A DNA stretch of 22,982 nucleotides from a virus: the IMG/VR virus record IMGVR_UViG_3300035682_000203, positions 1 to 22,982 of that record; one strand, 5' to 3'. Position 1 is the stretch's first letter. Each line of letters begins with the position of its first letter. This document shows positions 4,358 to 19,838 of this stretch, piece after piece. The notes below the pieces were generated by a model. The model worked only from the letters and a program-made list of their open reading frames with translations. It was not told where the DNA came from and made no database searches. The position numbers and the translations under genes are program-made.

Positions 4358-6979
4358 TTATGTCTCTGCTGGGGGTCTAGGTAAACGATTTATAGTTTCT
4401 GGTGCGCAACGCATATAGGTTTCCGGTTTTCCATTTTTACCTATTATAGGTTCGTCATTAGAATCAAGTTTTGGATACGCTCCATCCATTACGCATGCGA
4501 TCGTTCCGGACCTTGGACGAATTACAGTATTGTCTTTAGTTTGTAATGCAACATGAATCCAAAATTTTGTAATATCTCTAGAATAGATTGTATCTGTTTT
4601 AAATTCTAACAATAGTTGTTTAAAGGGAATATTTTGCGTCATCCATTCTGCAATTTTAACATGCTTCATTCTATCTACATTTCTCTGAGATTTACTCATA
4701 GATTCAAAGGGAACTGTTCCAAAATGTATATCTGCTGCACATCCTATATCGTGATCGCTAGCAGATGTAGATGTGCCCGCTTTTCTTAGGCCGCTGCTTA
4801 TTTGAAATATACCAAATTTTTGTAGGAGAGGTTCTAACACATTCTCAGCTAAAATGCGCATATTAATAACTATTTCTTTGGAGGTTAAATTACGCTGCGC
4901 AACCAATGGTCTTAACCCCAAATCACCGATAGATAAGCTCGCAATAGTAAAATTTTTGGATAATCTAAATGTGCCCGGAAAATATGTTGCTGACCGAATA
5001 TCTGAAAAATCTAAAGATTTTAATTTGGAATCATTTGTATCCGTAACCGGATAGGTGTCCTTTGCCGACACATCTGTAGCAACTCTAATATATTTAGATT
5101 CGCTGGCTGTTGGGGTATATTCTTCTGCATCATCTAAGCATTCCGCGTCACTTAATGCCCTAGTCATTGCAGCAGGTTCTGTTTTAGTAATTACCTTTAC
5201 ATTTGGTAAATCGGATGCTTTAAAATTTGTATTTGCTACAGATGCGGCGCCCATTTTATTTTTTATAAGTGGTGCATCAAGCGATAATATTGCACCCGCT
5301 CGCATACTTGCATTTATCTTTCCATCTATCGCAATATCATTAGATGCACTAAGAGCTAAATTGTTTTTAGATTGGATATTAATACTGTCCCCTATAATAT
5401 TTAATGCTCCTCCTGCTACAATATTTAAAGTATCTTTTGTAGTAATTTCAGCCTTGTTCGCATTAATTGCTACTACGCCCGCACATTCTGCAGTCATATT
5501 TCCGTGACTAATAATTGAAGTATCTCCGTCAACTTGTATTGACGCATCATCTTTTACATAAATGCTAGTTTTACCCTCAATAGTTAATTTCTTTGCACCC
5601 CTTACAAATACATAATCATTTTTATCAATTAGTTCGTAATTATCTCCTATTACTTTTCTAACAGACGAACCATTAATATCAATTTCAATATAAGATCCTG
5701 AAGTGTGAAATAGATGTATTCTTTCAGCATTCGGCGTACTATCTAATTCTAATATATGCCCAGCTTCAGTTTCAATTACTTGATTATAAGGATATGCTGC
5801 ACTATATGCGGAATTAGGTTCACTCCACTTTTCATTAGAATTTGCTATTTGAACATTTTTTATTTGTTTATTTTCTTTAATTGTAAAGTATCTATGAGAA
5901 GTGTCTCCTATTGCCAATTTGTTCACATCAGTATAACCTGCGTAATCTTTTTTAGGATATTTTTTTTCTGGATCCGAAAATGCTTTTTGATTCTGTATTT
6001 CTTTAGGGGTAGCACTATCAATAGTATTCTCAAAAGTATTTTTAGTTGTAGATCCTGATAATATATCGCCACCTAAACTAGTATTACCTACAATAAAAAA
6101 TTCTTCAGCTTTTCTTCCGTAATTATCTTTTCTTTGTAGATTGTCTGCATACTCCGCACCTATTACATGAGCAGATGCTAAAAATCCCGCAACTAAAAAT
6201 CTATCTTCAACCTCAGTAATTTTATCTGTACTAATCATTCTTTCATAATTTAATTTTATTGTATTATCCATCGCAGTTTCCTGCGTCGTTTTATTGGATA
6301 AAAAATTATCTTTAGATTTTATATTTTCTTTGCCGGTCCAATATGCAGTATTATTTGCAGCATTTGGATCAAAATATTCTGCAATAGGGATGCGAATGTA
6401 TCCCAAGTCCTGCAATTGTAATAAATTAAATTGGTATTTGCCCAGCTCGCCAAATTCTCCTACTTTGTCGTAATTGGAATTAGATAATTTATTGCCTAAT
6501 GCGTCTTTCAATTTGCTCAAATCTGATGCGACCAGCGGTTTTAGTGATTCATCAATACCAACAACGGATTCATTAGACGCAGCGATTGCATTGTTATTCG
6601 TATCATATAGCGCATTGCCCTGTGTATCTTTCACTGTTTTGGTTTGTATTTGTTTACTTTTATTATAGGTTTCAGTTTTAGCAGTTGTTCCAGGTTTCCC
6701 CGCGATTGTTCCCATAATAATGGGTTGCTGAGCTTCTTCAGCATCTAAAAACCAACCTACTACCCAAGAACCAGTAACTATCCCAACAGGGGAAGACCCG
6801 ACTCCTGATGTAGCTGCGGATGTAATGGGTTGCATAGGAATAGCCCACGGCAATTCCGAGGTAGGCAACAGTGTAATATCGTCGGTATGATACCCAAAGA
6901 TTCTTACCTTACATCTACCTAATTTTTCAGGATCATATCTATCTTCAACGACCCCCGTCCACCAATGCATAGTTTTCAT
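4358..6979 (-). CDS. 5: Baseplate hub spike gp5 with two putative cell-wall hydrolase domains
   Basis: This 873-residue protein is much longer than T4 gp5 (575). Residues 5-95 form the gp5 OB-fold (HWWTGVVEDRYDPEKLGRCK, then PIIMGTIAG). Residues about 150-300 resemble a lysozyme/lytic-transglycosylase-like module (GELGKYQFNLLQL near 177-189, a Q-E-T-A helix, and VAGFLASAHVIGAEYA at 263-278). Residues about 400-575 are the repetitive beta-prism typical of the gp5 C-terminal needle. The last 200 residues carry an M15-type DD-peptidase signature: S741-x-H743 to D750 (SDHDIGCAAD) and W807-x-H809 as the third zinc ligand. The protein would pierce the envelope and cut peptidoglycan. The gp27-like partner gene overlaps its start by four bases. 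Hub and spike assignment is firm. Activity of each enzyme domain is inferred. Confidence 0.9.
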   Translation of the reverse strand: MKTMHWWTGVVEDRYDPEKLGRCKVRIFGYHTDDITLLPTSELPWAIPMQPITSAATSGVGSSPVGIVTGSWVVGWFLDAEEAQQPIIMGTIAGKPGTTAKTETYNKSKQIQTKTVKDTQGNALYDTNNNAIAASNESVVGIDESLKPLVASDLSKLKDALGNKLSNSNYDKVGEFGELGKYQFNLLQLQDLGYIRIPIAEYFDPNAANNTAYWTGKENIKSKDNFLSNKTTQETAMDNTIKLNYERMISTDKITEVEDRFLVAGFLASAHVIGAEYADNLQRKDNYGRKAEEFFIVGNTSLGGDILSGSTTKNTFENTIDSATPKEIQNQKAFSDPEKKYPKKDYAGYTDVNKLAIGDTSHRYFTIKENKQIKNVQIANSNEKWSEPNSAYSAAYPYNQVIETEAGHILELDSTPNAERIHLFHTSGSYIEIDINGSSVRKVIGDNYELIDKNDYVFVRGAKKLTIEGKTSIYVKDDASIQVDGDTSIISHGNMTAECAGVVAINANKAEITTKDTLNIVAGGALNIIGDSINIQSKNNLALSASNDIAIDGKINASMRAGAILSLDAPLIKNKMGAASVANTNFKASDLPNVKVITKTEPAAMTRALSDAECLDDAEEYTPTASESKYIRVATDVSAKDTYPVTDTNDSKLKSLDFSDIRSATYFPGTFRLSKNFTIASLSIGDLGLRPLVAQRNLTSKEIVINMRILAENVLEPLLQKFGIFQISSGLRKAGTSTSASDHDIGCAADIHFGTVPFESMSKSQRNVDRMKHVKIAEWMTQNIPFKQLLLEFKTDTIYSRDITKFWIHVALQTKDNTVIRPRSGTIACVMDGAYPKLDSNDEPIIGKNGKPETYMRCAPETINRLPRPPAET

Positions 6980-10088: not shown

Positions 10089-10096
10089 TATAAATA
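10089..10096 (+). promoter_or_regulatory. T4-type late promoter (rightward)
   Basis: An exact TATAAATA octamer, the T4 late-promoter element recognised by gp55-type sigma with gp33 coactivation. Expected initiation is near 10103, about 20 bases before gp4. It overlaps head-on with a leftward copy at 10111-10118. Promoter identity is by consensus match; activity is inferred. Confidence 0.7.
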
Positions 10097-10110
10097 TTGT
10101 TACAATTATA

Positions 10111-10118
10111 TATTTATA
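10111..10118 (-). promoter_or_regulatory. T4-type late promoter (leftward)
   Basis: TATTTATA on the plus strand reads TATAAATA on the minus strand, again an exact T4 late element. Initiation is expected near 10104, about 24 bases before the gp48 ATG, so it would drive the whole baseplate operon 10080-1. An inverted repeat (ATTGT-T-ACAAT, 10095-10105) lies between this element and its rightward partner. Confidence 0.7.
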
Positions 10119-10122
10119 GCAA

Positions 10123-10578
10123 ATGATATACACCAAAACCTATAAAGGAAAGTTTAAGCCGAAAAATCCCCAAAAATATAAGGGCGATTTTACGAACATT
10201 GTTTATAGGTCTTTATGGGAGCTTCGATTTATGAAATGGTGCGATATGACTCCTAGTGTAGAGGAATGGGGGTCTGAGACAGTAATTGTACCATATGTGT
10301 CCCCGATTGATAAAAAGATACACAGATACTTTGTAGATTTCTATATTAAAGTTAGAAATAAAAATGATGTTACTCAAAAGTATCTAATAGAAATAAAACC
10401 AGAAAGATTTACCAAACCTCCTGCAATACCGCAGAAAAAAACAAAGCGATTTATAGATGAGGTATTTCAATATGGGGTAAATGAAGCTAAGTGGAAAGCA
10501 GCATTTGAATTTTGTCAGGACAGAAATATGAAATTTATGATATTAACCGAAAAAGATCTAGGAATAATTAATGGCTGA
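10123..10578 (+). CDS. 4: Head completion protein gp4 (PD-(D/E)XK nuclease-like)
   Basis: This 151-residue protein matches T4 gp4 (150), which finishes the packaged head before tail joining. It shows a TnsA-like PD-(D/E)XK nuclease core: E33 in RSLWELRFMKW, D72 in YFVDFYIKV, and E90-x-K92 in YLIEIKPE. The N-terminal basic stretch (YKGKFKPKNPQKYKGD) is characteristic of gp4. It is the first gene of the rightward late block and overlaps the next gene by eight bases. The nuclease-type residues are intact, which fits a role in trimming or sealing packaged DNA ends. The exact reaction is inferred from the family. Confidence 0.92.
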   Translation: MIYTKTYKGKFKPKNPQKYKGDFTNIVYRSLWELRFMKWCDMTPSVEEWGSETVIVPYVSPIDKKIHRYFVDFYIKVRNKNDVTQKYLIEIKPERFTKPPAIPQKKTKRFIDEVFQYGVNEAKWKAAFEFCQDRNMKFMILTEKDLGIING

Positions 10579-11143
10579 AAACGTATTCAAAACGGTAACT
10601 ATTCGCGAGGGCGATGATATAAAAGCTCAGCAATGGTACAAGAATGAAGTTAATCGATTTTCTCGCAACGGCGGAAGTACACAATTGCCCACAAGTATAA
10701 AGACAGTAAATCGCGTACAACCCGGGCAAATGTATCTTTTTATTTACGACCCCAAGTACAAAGATAAACTTCCATATTATGATGCGGCACCATTAGTATT
10801 ACCTTTTAGAATGTTGCCCGATGGATTCTTAGGTATTAATATACATTACTTACCCCATATTGCAAGATTTAACCTATTGGGGGAATTAAGTAAATTAGTA
10901 ATTAATACTAGTATAACAGATGATACTAGAATACGACTATCGTGGCAAATACTAAATAGCTCTTCTAGATTTTTAGGGGCAACTTCATGCGTAAAACATT
11001 ATCTAAGTGCGCATGTTAGAAGTAGTTTCTTAAGAATTGGTTTTAATGATTGGAAAACTGCAGCCATGCTACCGGTTGAGAAATTTAAAAAAGGTAGAAA
11101 GCAAACTGCATGGAAAGACAATTCAAAAAAATACGGATTATAA
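10571..11143 (+). CDS. Conserved late protein of T4-like phages, function unassigned
   Basis: This 190-residue soluble protein has no signal or membrane segment. Its distinctive part is residues 50-100: GQMYLFIYDPKYKDKLPYYD, a PLVLPF strand, then DGFLGINIHYLPHIARFNLL. I recognise this block as recurring in marine T4-like phages but cannot tie it to a T4 gene. The C-terminus is strongly basic (KFKKGRKQTAWKDNSKKYG), which would suit contact with DNA. It is overlapped with gp4 upstream and lies three bases before the tube protein. Placement between head-completion and tail-tube genes suggests a virion or head-tail assembly role (inference). Confidence 0.7.
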   Translation: MAENVFKTVTIREGDDIKAQQWYKNEVNRFSRNGGSTQLPTSIKTVNRVQPGQMYLFIYDPKYKDKLPYYDAAPLVLPFRMLPDGFLGINIHYLPHIARFNLLGELSKLVINTSITDDTRIRLSWQILNSSSRFLGATSCVKHYLSAHVRSSFLRIGFNDWKTAAMLPVEKFKKGRKQTAWKDNSKKYGL

Positions 11144-11146
11144 AAA

Positions 11147-11932
11147 ATGTCATATTTTAATATATCAAATTTTCAAACGCAAATAAGAACAAGGGGTGTA
11201 GCTAAACCCAATAGGTTTGAAGTTTTAATACCGCCACCTAACGTATTAAAAACGGTGTTAGATTATCCCCAATTAATAACTTTATTTTGCGACAGTGCAA
11301 GTTTACCTGTACGTAATATAAATGTAAAACAGCAGAGAATACAAGGACCAGCATATCAAAGACCAATGAGTGTTGATTACGGTGGAGACAATATCTCAAT
11401 GTCGTTTATTGTAGATAGAGAAATGGATATTAAAGGATTTTTTGATGCATGGATGAATATAATTATTAATCCAAATGAATATTATGTACATTATCAAGGT
11501 ACATATGCAACAACAATACGCATTTCTCAATTAGATGAGTATAATAAAGAAACCTATGCGGTAGTATTAGAAGATGCTTTTCCTAGAAGTGTCTCCATGT
11601 TAGACTTAAATAGTAGTACGCAAAATTCTTCCCATAGGTTAAATGTTAGTTTTGCATATAGAAAATGGTGGCCTCGGCATCGGGCGGTTGATAAACTGAA
11701 TCTTCTTAATCCTTACATTTATCCTTCAATAGAAAATCCAAGCGTGGCCGCGCCGAAACCCGATCCCGTTGTTCAATTATTTTCAGTACCTTCGCCGGAG
11801 ATCGAAGAGAGATACAGATTTTCTTCGGGCTCAACGGACCTCGATCCAAATAGCACAGATTCATTTTGGGTAAAGGGTCAACGAGTATCTGAACAAGAAT
11901 ATAGAATATTTCAATCTGCACCAATCGAATAA
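11147..11932 (+). CDS. 54: Tail-tube family protein, probably baseplate tube initiator gp54
   Basis: This 261-residue protein has a gp19/gp54-type tube domain. The N-terminus reads RGVAKPNRFEVLIPPP, followed by FCDSASLPVRNINVKQQRIQ, the typical SASLPG-like tube loop. GPAYQRPMSVDYGGDNISMS and FFDAWMNIIINPNEYYVHYQ then lead to a YAVVLEDAFPRSVSMLDLNS strand ending with SFAYRKWW. This order (processed N-terminal strand, loop, FF-x-x-W-x-x-x-I, then D-x-F-P-x-x) is shared by gp19 and gp54. About 60 extra proline-rich residues after the tube domain, and the neighbouring genes 26/51/29, favour gp54, which caps the baseplate and starts tube polymerisation. gp19 (163 residues in T4) would be shorter. 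Confidence 0.78.
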   Translation: MSYFNISNFQTQIRTRGVAKPNRFEVLIPPPNVLKTVLDYPQLITLFCDSASLPVRNINVKQQRIQGPAYQRPMSVDYGGDNISMSFIVDREMDIKGFFDAWMNIIINPNEYYVHYQGTYATTIRISQLDEYNKETYAVVLEDAFPRSVSMLDLNSSTQNSSHRLNVSFAYRKWWPRHRAVDKLNLLNPYIYPSIENPSVAAPKPDPVVQLFSVPSPEIEERYRFSSGSTDLDPNSTDSFWVKGQRVSEQEYRIFQSAPIE

Positions 11933-11969
11933 TTAAATGATTTTATAATAACATTTTTGAGGATAACAT

Positions 11970-12662
11970 ATGGCATTGCCTAAATTAGAAACACCCAGTT
12001 ATGAATTGATATTACCGTCAACCGGTCAAAAAATTAAATATCGTCCTTTTTTAGTAAAGGAATATAAGATTCTATTAACTTCGTTGGATTCCGATACTGA
12101 AGAAATCCAACGAGTAATAACAGATCTCGTAGATGTTTGCACCTATAATAAATTAAAGATTAACGAAATTCCTAGTTTTGATATTGAATATATCTTTTTA
12201 AATTTAAGAGCAAAGTCTATCGGGGAAAAAACAAATTTAACTTTGGAATGTACTAGTTGCAGCACAAAAATTCAATTTGAATTAGATTTAACTAAAGCGG
12301 AAGTTAAAAAGAATCCTAATCATTCAACTAAGCTTTTTATTACAGATACAATTGGTTTAGAGATGAGATATCCTAGATTCGATGAGTTGATGAATATCTA
12401 TAAAGATTTCAAATCCGATAATGTCGTAGAATTATTATGTATGTGCATAAAGTCGGTATTCACTGAAGAAGAAAATTATGATAATTATACTAAAGAAGAA
12501 ATGTTAGAATTTGTAAATTCTTTTTCTAAAGCGCAATTTGATATTTTAGAACAATTCTTTTTAACTATGCCAAAAGTAGTACAGCATATTGAACATGATT
12601 GCCCAAATTGTGGCGCAAAAAATGAAACAAATCTGGAGGGTTTACAAAATTTTTTCGCCTAA
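11970..12662 (+). CDS. 26: Baseplate hub assembly chaperone gp26 (tail assembly chaperone-like, putative zinc site)
   Basis: This 230-residue protein compares with 208 in T4 gp26 and belongs to the T4 base-plate-protein family. Conserved points are the opening LPKLETPSYELILPSTGQKI, the KYRPFLVKEYK strand (residues 23-33), and two CxxC pairs, C94-C97 (ECTSCS) and C211-C214 (DCPNCG), which probably bind zinc. A good Shine-Dalgarno sequence (GAGGA) lies about seven bases upstream. The 3' end runs through a slippery tract at 12647-12656 just before its TAA, and the -1 frame beyond it continues into a gp51-like extension. Together with the tape-measure gene downstream, this is the classic layout of the G/GT tail-assembly-chaperone pair. 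Confidence 0.85.
   Translation: MALPKLETPSYELILPSTGQKIKYRPFLVKEYKILLTSLDSDTEEIQRVITDLVDVCTYNKLKINEIPSFDIEYIFLNLRAKSIGEKTNLTLECTSCSTKIQFELDLTKAEVKKNPNHSTKLFITDTIGLEMRYPRFDELMNIYKDFKSDNVVELLCMCIKSVFTEEENYDNYTKEEMLEFVNSFSKAQFDILEQFFLTMPKVVQHIEHDCPNCGAKNETNLEGLQNFFA
12647..12656 (+). promoter_or_regulatory. Tandem slippery heptamers, putative programmed -1 frameshift site
   Basis: In the gp26 frame the last codons are AAT TTT TTC GCC TAA. Two overlapping X XXY YYZ heptamers are in phase: A AAT TTT (12647-12653) and T TTT TTC (12650-12656). A -1 slip at either one gives the same joint peptide, reading on as Phe-Phe-Arg in the frame that ends at the TAA at 12848-12850. The stop codon lies three bases after the second heptamer, within the usual stimulating range. 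I see no strong downstream hairpin. Confidence 0.72.
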
Positions 12663-16484: not shown

Positions 16485-16751
16485 TCAAAGTGGTAATTTT
16501 CCTCTACGTTTTAAATAATTCTGTTCCTCTGCTTCATTTTGTACTTTATCTTTAAGCGACTGATTTATTAATTTTGATATGGATTCAATTTCAATATCTA
16601 CTTCTTCGCAATATTGTATAATAGCATCCATATATCCAATTTTTTCTCTAATCACACGCTCTTCAATATGCAGGGAAAATTCATTAGGTGATCTAAATTT
16701 CTTGGTTATAATTAAACTATCTGTTAGAATGTATTCTATTTCGTTATCCAT
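16485..16751 (-). CDS. 33: Late-promoter transcription coactivator gp33
   Basis: This 88-residue protein aligns by eye with T4 gp33 (112 residues) over the central helices: IEERVIREKIGYMDAIIQYC corresponds to the T4 IEKMVEEFGMSYLEATTAFL segment, followed by a SLKDKVQNEAEEQNYL block corresponding to IIEKIQSEAIDENLL. gp33 binds the RNA polymerase beta flap and links it to the sliding clamp at late promoters. The start overlaps the bilin reductase stop by eight bases, and the next gene is gp59, as in T4. The T4 N-terminal acidic arm is shorter here. Confidence 0.85.
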   Translation of the reverse strand: MDNEIEYILTDSLIITKKFRSPNEFSLHIEERVIREKIGYMDAIIQYCEEVDIEIESISKLINQSLKDKVQNEAEEQNYLKRRGKLPL

Positions 16752-17421
16752 GTGTTTCCGGGAATAATACTTCGTCCATAAAATTTGTAAAAACTTGTTT
16801 GTCTACTCCAAAATTTACCATCATTGCTGGGGTATGAGGATTCAACTTTTGATTTTTGCAATATCGATTTTGCATAGATATAAAATCTGCATCTTTTACA
16901 CTATTACCTATATTATAAAGGTAATAATCTAGGTTGTCAATAAAAGTATTTACTAGTTGATCATATTCTTCTTGAGTATGAATATTACCCGCAGCTAACA
17001 TTTTTGGACTAAAAATCTTCTGTGCCCATTCCGGAAGTTCTCTTGGTTTACTCCATTGTACTGATGACATTCTATTCTGATACCAATCATATAGATTCGA
17101 TTTTCCTATTTTGGAAAAGTCGTGGAATGCCCCTGTTATCTTATTTTGTCCGCAGACTACATCGAATCCAAAAATTGGATCCGGCGAATCATAATGCGGA
17201 AATATACACATATGCATAACCCACATTTTTTTAGTTGCGGTGGCATCTACTATCTCAATATGCGCTCGTCTAAATTTATCAGATGTCCAAATATAATTCT
17301 TCCATGAAAAATTATCGACATGAATTTCATATTCTGGTTTAAGTGTTTCAACAGAATATTGTTTAAATTTATCAATAACTAATTGTGATAATAAATTTAT
17401 TTGCGGCCAAATTTCAATCAT
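16744..17421 (-). CDS. Ferredoxin-dependent bilin reductase, PcyA/PcyX-type
   Basis: I choose the ATG at 17419-17421 (225 residues, MIEIWPQ). It has AAGGA seven bases upstream, whereas the earlier in-frame ATG at 17454 would lie 41 bases inside the heme oxygenase gene. By eye the sequence follows cyanobacterial PcyA: E56 in AHIEIV (PcyA Glu76), H70 in VMHMCIFP (His88), D87 in IFGFDVV (Asp105), and N194 in YCKNQKLN (Asn219). A C-terminal FGVDKQVFTNFMDEVLF also fits. These enzymes reduce biliverdin with ferredoxin electrons to phycocyanobilin (PcyA) or, in marine phages, phycoerythrobilin (PebS, PcyX). The conserved residues place it nearer PcyA/PcyX than PebS. The product cannot be read from sequence. 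Heme oxygenase upstream supplies its substrate. Confidence 0.88.
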   Translation of the reverse strand: MIEIWPQINLLSQLVIDKFKQYSVETLKPEYEIHVDNFSWKNYIWTSDKFRRAHIEIVDATATKKMWVMHMCIFPHYDSPDPIFGFDVVCGQNKITGAFHDFSKIGKSNLYDWYQNRMSSVQWSKPRELPEWAQKIFSPKMLAAGNIHTQEEYDQLVNTFIDNLDYYLYNIGNSVKDADFISMQNRYCKNQKLNPHTPAMMVNFGVDKQVFTNFMDEVLFPETHG

Positions 17422-17947
17422 TAAAGTCCTTAAGCATAGCAATATTAAAGTCAAATGCTAAATTTGCTTCATTTGCTAATGAAATATCTAATTTACTTCT
17501 CATCTTAGCTGCAAGACCGGGGATATCGTTAAACTTAAACATATTGTTAGGACCAGGTAATAATTTAGCTAATGCCTGTCCTCCAAATAAATCACCCATA
17601 TGGCGAACATAGATATGTGCAAGTAATTTATCTTTATCTAATTTAATGGACTCAATATATTGTAAATATGCTGCAGTAGAATTTTTCATTAGATATATTT
17701 GCATATTATTATTTGCTAATTCTGCAAAATCCAATTCTATCGCTTTTGCCCTCTTAATATCTTCTATTCCTTCGAAGATACCCAATCCATCTGCTAAATA
17801 TTCTAACCGCAAATATATTAATCTAAGTTGATAAAGATAATCAGTATATTTTTTAACATCTACCTGTTTACTAAAAATAGATTTAATAAATGGTTGAGTT
17901 TCTGCTTCTTTGTGTTTTTCTAAAGTTAATTCTTTTAATGAAGACAT
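17414..17947 (-). CDS. ho1: Heme oxygenase (biliverdin-forming)
   Basis: This 177-residue protein is shorter than typical cyanobacterial HO1 (about 240). The proximal heme ligand is H12 in TLEKHKEAE. The distal helix carries the signature LLAHIYVRHMGDLFGGQ (residues 108-124), corresponding to GDLSGGQ of known enzymes. It opens heme to biliverdin IX-alpha with release of CO and iron. The stop codon overlaps the bilin reductase ATG by eight bases, so a biliverdin-to-bilin relay is encoded in one coupled unit. A modest AAGG ribosome site precedes the ATG. The gene starts three bases after the end of a 2OG oxygenase gene. The window shows no phage ferredoxin, so the host must supply electrons. 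Confidence 0.93.
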   Translation of the reverse strand: MSSLKELTLEKHKEAETQPFIKSIFSKQVDVKKYTDYLYQLRLIYLRLEYLADGLGIFEGIEDIKRAKAIELDFAELANNNMQIYLMKNSTAAYLQYIESIKLDKDKLLAHIYVRHMGDLFGGQALAKLLPGPNNMFKFNDIPGLAAKMRSKLDISLANEANLAFDFNIAMLKDFND

Positions 17948-17950
17948 TGG

Positions 17951-18556
17951 TTACGCCTTTCGTCCAGTTGCCGGATATCCAATGTATGGTCGGTGATCAT
18001 ATTTGTAATCCCTAAATTTACCTTTTTTATCTATATAGTGCAAGAATGCTTGTGTTTGTCTAGTACCAGCATAAGGAGTTCTCCAATGATTAAGTACATC
18101 TCCTTTGTAAACAATTAAGTCACCTGGTTCTAAATATATTGCTTTGTGTTCGCCGGTTAAAGTCTCAAACCAAATTTCCCATGGTTCTGGATCATTTGAA
18201 ATGCAGATAGTAGTGGAGTATTCGCAACTTGGTCTATCCTTATGGATTGCCATTTCAGCGCCGGTGTAGTATATCCTAGCATACGTATATGTGGGATTAA
18301 GTAATTTGCCGGTAACCGTTTCTAATAGAGGTTTAAGCTGAAGAGATAAAGATTCAAAACAAAGTGCAGAATAATATGAATACGAATTTGTGATTTGTGT
18401 ATCATTAAAAAGAAATTTATTCTCTTCGGTTTGTTGCGTATTATTTTGCATATACTGAAGAGTTTTTACTAGTTCAAATTCTGTATCTAGATGTACTAAT
18501 AAATCTTTTGAAATTGCTCCCTGAACAACTTCATATAAATCTGTTTCAAATGCCAT
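17951..18556 (-). CDS. 2-oxoglutarate/Fe(II)-dependent oxygenase
   Basis: I take the ATG at 18554-18556 (201 residues), preceded by AAGGAA at good spacing. An earlier in-frame ATG at 18604 runs into the tmRNA downstream hairpin. The double-stranded beta-helix residues are visible: H105-x-D107 (AIHKDRPS), distal H157 (LNHWRTPY) and R166 (GTRQTQA) for 2-oxoglutarate. LEPGDLIVYKGD precedes the second His, as in prolyl-4-hydroxylase-like proteins. Such enzymes hydroxylate proteins or small molecules. The target is unknown, though the family is frequent in marine T4-like phages. It lies just upstream of heme oxygenase, which releases iron, but any functional link is speculative. Confidence 0.88.
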   Translation of the reverse strand: MAFETDLYEVVQGAISKDLLVHLDTEFELVKTLQYMQNNTQQTEENKFLFNDTQITNSYSYYSALCFESLSLQLKPLLETVTGKLLNPTYTYARIYYTGAEMAIHKDRPSCEYSTTICISNDPEPWEIWFETLTGEHKAIYLEPGDLIVYKGDVLNHWRTPYAGTRQTQAFLHYIDKKGKFRDYKYDHRPYIGYPATGRKA

Positions 18557-18579
18557 ATATTTCCTTAATAAAATCATAT

Positions 18580-18608
18580 CCGGTTGATTGGATGATAAGG
18601 ACAACCGG
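18580..18608 (-). terminator. Hairpin after tmRNA, possible terminator or processing signal
   Basis: Seven perfect pairs, CCGGTTG (18602-18608 on the minus strand) with CAACCGG (18580-18586), flank a 15-base loop. The downstream tract ATATGATTTTATT is only moderately T-rich. It lies between the tmRNA body and the 2OG oxygenase start, so it may protect the tmRNA 3' side or weakly terminate. Confidence 0.45.
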
Positions 18609-18611
18609 AAA

Positions 18612-18890
18612 AACCTCAGCGAGTAGCTTACGCTACCATGCGATACGAGTTATCGTTTGCATTTACTATTTTGCTTGATTTACGGTCATCGCCTACCGAA
18701 TTGTCTGTATCGTTACTTATTGCCCAATCGAAACCATGGCAGGCCCATTATAAAATATACTAGCGATTAGTTGATCTCTAATCTTTACCCAAGCTTCTCA
18801 CCTGACTAATATACTTTATGGTGGACCTGGCGGGAATCGAACCCGCGTCTTGAACACCTTTCAGTCAACTTCTTCCCTTTCGGGGTTTAC
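18612..18890 (-). ncRNA. ssrA: Circularly permuted (two-piece) tmRNA
   Basis: On the minus strand the acceptor piece comes first (about 18890-18819). It has a perfect T-arm with TTCGATT loop (18830-18846) and ends CAGGTCC-ACCA (18829-18819). A 72-base spacer (18747-18818) follows, then the coding piece from 18746, starting GGGCCTGCCATGGTTTCGA. The acceptor stem GGGCCTG pairs with CAGGTCC (one G-U). TTGGGCA (18721-18727) pairs with TGTTCAA (18850-18856), and CAGACAAT (18700-18707) with GTTGACTG (18862-18869) apart from one mismatch. The tag frame 18660-18628 is GCA to TAA and gives ANDNSYRMVA. The stop lies in the loop of a GTAGC/GCTAC hairpin (18623-18636). It rescues stalled ribosomes. Outer ends are approximate. 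Confidence 0.9.
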
Positions 18891-19000
18891 AATAATTCTT
18901 TTACTTCATCCCAAAGTAACCACACTGCTAAATTAATAGTACATATTAGCGTAGTTCCTAGAATGAATCCAACCAAAAAATCTCCTGTTTGGTCGCACAT
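18887..19000 (-). CDS. Putative 37-residue single-span membrane protein
   Basis: ATG at 18998-19000, stop at 18887-18889. After MCDQTGD comes one hydrophobic segment, residues about 8-29 (FLVGFILGTTLICTINLAVW), and then a short acidic/basic tail (DEVKELL). It starts with no spacer after the stop of the preceding small gene, so coupling is likely, though it lacks its own ribosome site. It runs up to the 5' side of the tmRNA acceptor piece. A small phage membrane protein upstream of a stable RNA and not far from the endolysin could be a holin-like factor. That is a guess. Confidence 0.55.
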   Translation of the reverse strand: MCDQTGDFLVGFILGTTLICTINLAVWLLWDEVKELL

Positions 19001-19159
19001 TTATTCTGTTTCACGTAACACACATCTAGCAATAATATCATTTCTGTTTTTTACTATAGCAGTTGCTGCTTCCCAACATTCTTCAAATCTAGGATATGAT
19101 TTCCACTCTTGTTCTACATCTTGAGATAGTAGTACTACAAATAAAACATAAACAGACAT
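19001..19159 (-). CDS. Small 52-residue protein with hydrophobic N-terminus, unknown
   Basis: ATG at 19157-19159, preceded by GGAGA at six-base spacing, a good site. The first 12 residues (MSVYVLFVVLLS) form a short hydrophobic signal-like segment. The remainder (EQEWKSYPRFEECWEAATAI, then IARCVLRET) has two cysteines that could pair if exported. I do not recognise the family. It is co-directional with the exonuclease gene, which stops 19 bases before it, and abuts the 37-residue membrane protein. Confidence 0.6.
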   Translation of the reverse strand: MSVYVLFVVLLSQDVEQEWKSYPRFEECWEAATAIVKNRNDIIARCVLRETE

Positions 19160-19178
19160 ATTAGTCTCCGCTATTTAT

Positions 19179-19838
19179 TTAGATATTAAATTCTTTCCTA
19201 TATATATCTCTCAAATCTTTAAACCCGTTGATCCACGTGTTTCGTTTTTCTTTAAAAACTAGAATACCGTGATCGTCGGTTGAAATTATAATTACTAATT
19301 GAGAAACCGGATTACCGGTCATCTCCTCATATGCTACCGCATAAGCAGAACATTGCATAAAGTAATCGTGAATATCGGCGCGTGTTTTATTCCGCTTAGA
19401 TGTTTTAAAATCTATTACCGATAACTTTCCTTCATATTCACCTATGCAATCTACGGTCCCTGCAATTTGTAAATGATGAGAAAATAGAGATTTTTCCATA
19501 ACATGGATATTGTCTATCTTATGTAGATAGGGTTTAATCTCTGTCCAATTTTGAGTATCGAACACACTAGGAGCAATATCTTGATTATACAGATATTGCT
19601 CACATAATGTATGTATTCGAGTACCTCGTTTACTGGCAGTGGTGCTAATCTTATTGGCTGCTTCATTACCTACACGAGCTCGCCATGCTTTAATTATATC
19701 TCGTTTTAATAATCCGGTAACTGTAGTAACAGACGGATACTTTTCCCCGGTAGGAGTTTCATATGTTCTAACTCCATCTTCTCGAGTTACTCGATTTAAT
19801 TTAGGCAATTCCCCTATATCAACATGAGTAAAAATCAT
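19179..19838 (-). CDS. PD-(D/E)XK exonuclease (RecB-like)
   Basis: This 219-residue protein carries the full RecB-like nuclease set: H76 in GTRIHTLCE, D130 in GTVDCIGE, D143-F-K145 (VIDFKTSK), and Q162-x-x-x-Y166 (QCSAY). Residues 26-45 (YETPTGEKYPSVTTVTGLLK) form the opening common to phage exonucleases of this type. The protein would degrade DNA in a metal-dependent way, in phage replication, recombination or host genome breakdown. No helicase part is fused. Its start overlaps the MazG-like gene by four bases. Function is confident at family level only. Confidence 0.88.
   Translation of the reverse strand: MIFTHVDIGELPKLNRVTREDGVRTYETPTGEKYPSVTTVTGLLKRDIIKAWRARVGNEAANKISTTASKRGTRIHTLCEQYLYNQDIAPSVFDTQNWTEIKPYLHKIDNIHVMEKSLFSHHLQIAGTVDCIGEYEGKLSVIDFKTSKRNKTRADIHDYFMQCSAYAVAYEEMTGNPVSQLVIIISTDDHGILVFKEKRNTWINGFKDLRDIYRKEFNI

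Follow-up and report, generated by a model that had tools for sequence, protein, structure and literature searches.

The tmRNAs of mycobacteriophages (i.e. Bxz1 and its relatives) are one-piece molecules. Two-piece tmRNAs have been published for aquatic T4-like phages, with Melnitz as an example (2022; MZ577097, PMC9004378); the same source gives 53 two-piece forms among 133 unique structures, 50 of the 53 being marine or aquatic. Another paper counts 79 unique bacteriophage tmRNA sequences; as spacer contents its available text names a single tRNA gene and a single repetitive element, and no reading frames (PMC11915505). It has been proposed that a phage tmRNA maintains the machinery hijacked from the host, or that it tags host proteins so that they can be recycled (PMC9004378). 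The locus described here was initially noted from its sequence as an uncommon case of a phage carrying its own tmRNA. This holds overall, with 402 of 18,146 phage genomes, but not for aquatic phages, in which the two-piece form is a known theme (PMC9004378). The gene is a further example of these published two-piece tmRNAs; what seems new here is the apparent exchange of modules.

The window, i.e. the whole stretch of viral DNA that was analysed, is 22,982 nt long. A permuted tmRNA was called by ARAGORN on the minus strand (18537-18911, tag ANDNSYRMVA*). A covariance-model search, as proposed in the sequence-only reading, matched two Rfam models over their whole length and above their gathering scores: RF04321 tmRNA_permuted at 18628-18881 (-), with 125.1 bits against 47 (E 1.8e-24), and RF01850 beta_tmRNA at 18551-18923 (-), with 100.5 bits against 84. 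Together with an intact-looking structure (Table 1), these calls confirm a phage-encoded circularly permuted tmRNA. The span first assigned to it, 18612-18890, covers the core of the gene, but the beta model adds about 60 nt on the downstream side (to 18551) and some 30 nt on the upstream side (to 18923). Among the permuted-pattern matches listed, ARAGORN called a permuted tmRNA in 100 of 120 viral stretches, as compared to 4 of 119 from species genomes.

Table 1. Features of the permuted tmRNA gene in the window
Feature	Position	Strand	Evidence or remark
Whole permuted tmRNA gene	18551..18923	-	RF01850 100.5 bits; RF04321 125.1 bits within
Acceptor piece, first in gene: pairing segment, T-arm, 3' acceptor strand, CCA	18819..18923	-	ARAGORN, Rfam
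Inter-piece helix, acceptor-piece side UGUUCAA	18850..18856	-	7/7 pairs with 18721-18727; beside T-arm; co-varies, 86 genes
T-arm	18830..18846	-	Rfam alignment
Acceptor stem 3' strand CAGGUCC, then A73 and CCA	18823..18829	-	
Intervening spacer (IVS), 72 nt, closed by 13-pair terminal stem	18747..18818	-	
Exchanged cassette: sole block of 18568-18924 differing between window and sister phage	18736..18845	-	56% identical
Acceptor stem 5' strand GGGCCUG = 5' end of coding piece	18740..18746	-	
Conserved D-loop motif GGUUUCGA	18728..18735	-	Rfam alignment
Inter-piece helix, coding-piece side UUGGGCA	18721..18727	-	
Resume codon and tag frame ANDNSYRMVA, stop UAA	18628..18660	-	ARAGORN
Hairpin, stop codon UAA in GUAA loop	18623..18636	-	-7.8 kcal/mol for the stretch folded
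3' helix CCGGUUG...CAACCGG of coding piece	18580..18608	-	RF01850 alignment; fold -11.6 kcal/mol

The order of the gene was as originally read, with the acceptor piece followed by the spacer and the coding piece. All seven pairs of the acceptor stem form, including G3-U70, which confers alanine identity, and CCA is encoded. The T-arm and the tag frame with its stop codon in a hairpin loop were likewise located as described. Of the two inter-piece helices proposed, the one beside the T-arm is clear, with seven pairs, but the next contains several non-standard pairs in the Rfam alignment, so that this part of the proposal is borne out only by half. The tag of the window ends in MVA, LAA being the commoner ending. 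Folding of the whole gene gave z = -2.57, with 1 of 100 shuffles equally good. A simple scan detected no promoter- or terminator-like site beside the tmRNA on its strand, and two weak plus-strand promoter matches beside it were below shuffle counts. The TATAAATA motif, which we take to be of the T4 late-promoter type, occurs twice in the window against 6.55 expected; both copies lie at 10089-10118, one on each strand, at a point where two gene blocks diverge, and the whole window has none closer to the tmRNA than position 10118.

Covariation was assessed in 88 distinct viral genes, from 105 that allowed segmentation, among the matches listed. Melnitz, with its alpha D-loop, was removed before this set was formed, as were genes truncated by the end of a contig and any second call at the same locus; L039 was additionally removed from the acceptor-stem test and two genes from the inter-piece helix test. 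The acceptor stem was paired at 7/7 positions in 86 of 87 distinct viral genes among the matches listed, with a mean of 6.97 own pairs as compared to 5.54 with shuffled partners, a count flattered by the procedure, in which whichever 7-mer within 20 nt paired best was taken as the 5' strand. Double changes were observed at pairs 4, 5 and 6, and the third pair was G-U in 86 of these 87 genes. The inter-piece helix, taken at fixed positions in 86 of the 88 genes, formed 6.87 of 7 pairs versus 5.86 when shuffled (maximum of 2000 shuffles, 6.07) and was fully paired in 78 of the 86; the window has UUCAA/UUGGG where most of these relatives have UUCUG/CAGGG. Spacer ends also paired, with a mean of -12.5 kcal/mol as compared to -5.6 kcal/mol for shuffled partners (87 genes among the matches listed). 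Co-variation of the two halves, whose failure had been named in advance as grounds for rejection, was found in both the acceptor stem and the inter-piece helix. Folding and covariation of the tmRNA gene exceed chance.

The best overall explanation, which we consider likely, is that a T4-like aquatic phage carries a beta-type two-piece tmRNA whose middle has been exchanged by recombination. Transcription of the gene would yield a minus-strand precursor in which both the acceptor stem and that of the spacer form, and the spacer would be removed by host tRNA-processing enzymes. Host AlaRS would be expected to charge the CCA end (both G3-U70 and A73 are present), host SmpB to deliver the charged tmRNA to stalled ribosomes, and the ribosome to append ANDNSYRMVA. 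The MVA end would probably still serve as a protease signal, judging by work on altered SsrA tags. The most likely benefit would be to keep ribosomes available while transcripts are cut during infection; replacement of the host's tmRNA by that of the phage, as first suggested, may also be possible. Alternatively, the tRNA-like domain could act as a decoy that ties up SmpB or AlaRS of the host and thereby stops host trans-translation, as has been suggested for a fragment in mycobacteriophage DS6A. In DS6A, a form reduced to this domain is reported, and a similar molecule inhibits tmRNA (PMC4131195, PMC11915505). A decoy is nevertheless unlikely here, as the window gene retains all of the tag frame, the hairpin at the stop codon and the 3' helix. 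Furthermore, a sister phage (contig G447, 94.3% identical to the window over 8,210 nt) matches the window without a difference over 168 nt of the coding piece, whereas the next downstream gene differs by 5-14%.

The gene of this two-piece tmRNA is of the betaproteobacterial type. The window scored above the cut-off with beta_tmRNA RF01850 (100.5 bits, cut-off 84) and below it with alpha_tmRNA RF01849 (39.3 bits, cut-off 50) and cyano_tmRNA RF01851. A cyanobacterial-type tmRNA was ruled out by the last score (43.3 bits, cut-off 70). The proposal that the gene came from, or serves in, an alphaproteobacterial-type host was mostly refuted for gene type by the same comparison, and an alphaproteobacterial-type tmRNA for an alphaproteobacterial host is very improbable. 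That reading drew on the ANDN start of the tag, which is found in 26 of 30 alpha-like host calls and in none of 37 beta/cyano-like host calls. ANDN tags are not restricted to alphaproteobacteria, however, since L277, a one-piece host gene from the order of Dechloromonas, has the tag ANDNSYALAA. The baseplate protein of the window is nearest to those of SAR11 phage Mosig (39.2%) and Melnitz (38.9%), and the tmRNA of Melnitz is alpha-type (106.7 bits), but the exonuclease is nearest to those of cyanophages (46.4% at best), so that the relatives leave the host unsettled. Furthermore, a phage may carry a tmRNA of another type than its host, as Melnitz is a phage of OM43 (PMC9004378).

Comparison with host-clade ssrA genes, which had been suggested as a check, pinpointed no host. 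Identities of the best host genes to the window were just 0.60 for the acceptor-side segment and 0.74 for the core (i.e. the segment from the D-loop to the resume codon), and no host was assigned because the best genomes had identities of only 0.57-0.60 and 0.71-0.75, respectively, for these segments. Among the matches listed, the nearest viral gene not belonging to the window's own family reached 0.69 and 0.87. The tag region, searched as a near-exact DNA pattern in the window's own codons, had no match in genome_contigs, and a codon-degenerate tag pattern was found in only nine viral contigs, all of the window's phage family. A DNA search of the annotated phage collection for similar tmRNAs returned four records, each matched over just 31-34 nt. 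Host beta-type permuted ssrA genes (the 37 beta/cyano-like calls) have the gene order and domains of the window; their spacers, as cut by script, measure 5-66 nt except in L256 (71 nt) and the cyanobacterial L257 (140 nt), as compared to 72 nt in the window. Genome G001, to which the Dechloromonas agitata locus L181 belongs, has a pair of permuted tmRNA matches (L254 and L300) on opposite strands, separated by approximately 150 nt.

Among close relatives, two versions of the gene's middle were observed. The window version was 100% identical over the compared gene and flanks in six further contigs, and the sister version was present in L125, L126 and L129 plus the cut contig L252. The window and its sister had zero differences at 18846-18924 and 18568-18735; the 110-nt block between these segments (18736-18845) was 56% identical, the lowest of 148 windows compared. 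This cassette begins in the T-stem and stops immediately short of the D-loop motif; it comprises the two acceptor strands, the CCA and the spacer, with full pairing in both versions. The difference would best be explained by recombination at two conserved motifs, GGTTCGA and GGTTTCGA, on either side. As the permuted order puts the two acceptor strands side by side, both could be swapped together with their pairing kept.

The spacer pattern of the window was found in eight viral contigs, i.e. six of the window's kind plus L250 and L251, whose spacers are 99% identical to that of the window and whose tags, ANADTFDFAALSFSGNTVGGRVALAA and ANTAFKYFEVDVAVNDSKFALAA, are unrelated to it. When fragments were compared by blastn, L250 was similar to the window in the tmRNA only, and G449 (the contig of L251) in the tmRNA and in 38 nt (17592-17629) inside the heme-oxygenase gene only. 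At the protein level, L250 has a 27% match to one window protein, and G449 encodes a distant heme oxygenase (48%) and bilin reductase (44%). The tmRNA match extends past the cassette, and the tract common to these phages and the window may exceed the cassette because their cores are also fairly alike (0.77 identity). The phage contig of L251 additionally contains a tRNA with a CTA anticodon (L343:11824-11897, +; tRNA-Pyl by ARAGORN) that could be amber-reading. Viral contig L250 has frames at 4446-6530 and 10231-12511 that by eye resemble superoxide dismutase, IscU, the ribonucleotide reductase small subunit, and a peroxiredoxin with its reductase.

The cassette difference might instead reflect fast drift in a spacer free of constraint, or a chimeric contig produced by metagenome assembly. 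Removed spacers should indeed diverge fast, and the compared viral contigs are mostly metagenomic, with one contig each for L250 and L251. The edges of the block are, however, sharp, paired stems lie inside it, and the flanks within the gene are identical. The window version came from six metagenome identifiers, the window's own not counted, and the sister version from four. In other viral genes, spacers 97-100% identical accompany cores of just 0.53-0.64 identity (L010/L030/L037, L070/L122 and L011/L018), a combination hard to produce by drift. Drift or chimerism is accordingly regarded as highly improbable.

Signs of exchange were also observed in the wider set of viral genes. Among the matches listed, 21 of 3,828 viral pairs had spacers (of at least 25 nt) at least 0.9 identical, and in 14 of these 21 the cores were below 0.8; cores were at least 0.9 identical in 78 pairs, 53 of which had tags below 0.7. 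The corresponding counts for 31 host genes (465 pairs) were 0 of 1 and 0 of 43. This host set comprised the 37 calls minus L253 (a pattern-scan find), L256 (possibly viral), L257 (cyanobacterial), L300 (a repeat), and L291 and L267 (misread tags). Core and tag identities were correlated at 0.18 in viruses, among the matches listed, as compared to 0.67 in 33 host genes (the 37 calls minus L253, L254, L256 and L257); these correlations alone would not prove exchange, because the host set is narrower, with few families, which may itself raise correlations between modules. Near-identical spacers with unlike cores are a stronger argument for exchange than the correlations. From these comparisons, the viral permuted tmRNAs look like mosaics and the 31 sampled host genes do not. 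Four loci with the core motif of the window (L346-L349), all passing RF04321, have other spacers and tags; three of the four also have other acceptor stems, L348 having that of the window. Relatives of the window's neighbouring proteins are encoded by L347-L349, and L346 has only patches of similar DNA. The spacers of L061, L034 and L346 contain a second T-arm-like sequence (GGTTCGA with flanks), perhaps a trace of earlier exchange. No description of an exchange of tmRNA modules was found in the literature searched, which excludes most subscription journals.

One of these loci, L348, has a 149-nt spacer with a 55-codon frame running on into the coding piece. A scan for long spacers gave at least 120 stretches, and 116 loci new to the set were examined; a strict detector recovered 54 tmRNAs, at least 49 with spacers of at least 110 nt, 34 of them distinct, among the matches listed. 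This detector says nothing on pairing because it requires a perfect acceptor stem. Among the matches listed, a start codon at spacer position 7-17 opened at least 30 codons in 27 of the 34 distinct long spacers, as compared to a mean of 2.0 and a maximum of 7 of 34 in 200 full dinucleotide shuffles; with ATG starts only, the figures were 24 of 34 versus a mean of 0.7 and a maximum of 4. A Shine-Dalgarno-like motif preceded 18 of the 27 frames, and in 23 of them the start lay at spacer position 10-13, counted from the CCA, again among the matches listed. Some frames end within the spacer and others continue into the coding piece. By spacer residues only, they form 18 families among the matches listed, two of which have doubtful GTG starts. 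Short-spacer genes had such a frame in 12 of 88 cases among the matches listed, all with GTG or TTG starts, and these are regarded as chance. The window's own 72-nt spacer has no frame of at least 30 codons starting at positions 7-17.

For the more divergent homologous pairs of spacer frames, pN/pS was 0.15 (L382/L417), 0.24 (L350/L403), 0.40 (L425/L436) and 0.43 (L384/L408), and L358/L364 gave 0.19. Other close pairs, with few changes, gave 1.98 (L352/L442), 1.00 (L442/L451), 0.75 (L372/L407) and 0.33 (L352/L451), and L408/L441, a non-homologous pair, gave 0.71. Several spacer frames appear from these ratios to be under purifying selection, not uniformly across pairs. Ten frame-bearing long-spacer loci were checked together with L348, and all pass RF04321; relatives of the window's neighbouring proteins are encoded in 5 of 11 frame-bearing loci examined (L348, L382, L408, L425 and L449). 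Other frame-bearing loci include L350, L362, L384, L417, L441 and L450. A PHROGs comparison matched 0 of 10 spacer proteins. Reading frames in tmRNA spacers were not described in the literature searched, a body of work from which most subscription journals are absent.

On balance, we lean towards a model in which the middle of the permuted tmRNA of aquatic phages is an exchangeable slot. Stems and spacer would be traded as a cassette, with tags and cores reshuffled. Many relatives, including phages with neighbouring genes in common with the window (L348, L382, L408, L425 and L449) and the cultured Melnitz, would carry a small protein gene in this slot, often with a ribosome-binding site right after the CCA, and a single transcript could then serve as a mini-messenger as well as the source of a two-piece tmRNA. 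The filling in the window is a hairpin only, common to otherwise dissimilar phages.

The genes around the tmRNA encode gp32, a helicase loader, baseplate proteins, PhoH and an exonuclease, as in a T4-like phage. A host tmRNA on a misclassified bacterial fragment, conceivable in that many viral matches of this tmRNA family have host-like tags, is refuted by this context, several of the genes being in Melnitz order. Genes for heme oxygenase and a ferredoxin-dependent bilin reductase lie beside the tmRNA on its downstream side (16744-17947, -); the closest match of the reductase in the phage collection is from SAR11 phage Mosig (35.6%), and bilin genes in aquatic phages are already known (PMC11480375). 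Directly downstream of the tmRNA, a gene at 17951-18604 (-) has no Pfam match, and its protein is the least conserved of 14 compared between the sister phages (92.6%).

Phage tmRNAs are known but unexplained, and piecewise trading and spacer frames make the question testable. The apparent piecewise trade between phages would explain how very different tags and tRNA-like domains combine without loss of pairing; it also hints at what the permuted order of the gene may be good for in evolution. The spacer, usually viewed as waste, holds small frames in many relatives; if these are expressed, annotated phage genomes miss a class of small genes inside an RNA gene.

As compared to known systems, mycobacteriophage Bxz1 and its relatives resemble the window in encoding a tmRNA (PMC4131195). 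The ssrA of Melnitz is closer in kind, being a permuted two-piece tmRNA of a T4-like aquatic phage with a matching neighbourhood; PhoH, the PDDEXK exonuclease, ssrA, the helicase loader and gp32 follow in the same order in both, with other genes between them in both. Differences were observed in several respects. The tag of Melnitz (ANDNYVPVDYALAA) has 14 aa and that of the window 10 aa. Melnitz has a glutamine riboswitch at the 3' side of ssrA, whereas a search of window positions 18300-19200 with RF01739 gave no match at E up to 5. A 54-codon frame starts at position 20 of the Melnitz spacer and runs past it, unlike the frame-free spacer of the window, and the window, unlike Melnitz, has heme oxygenase and bilin reductase downstream. 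The ssrA of Melnitz scored 106.7 bits with the alpha model and 25 with the beta model, with no match to the cyanobacterial one, and the window is beta-type; phages with a Melnitz-like neighbourhood therefore carry tmRNAs of different type.
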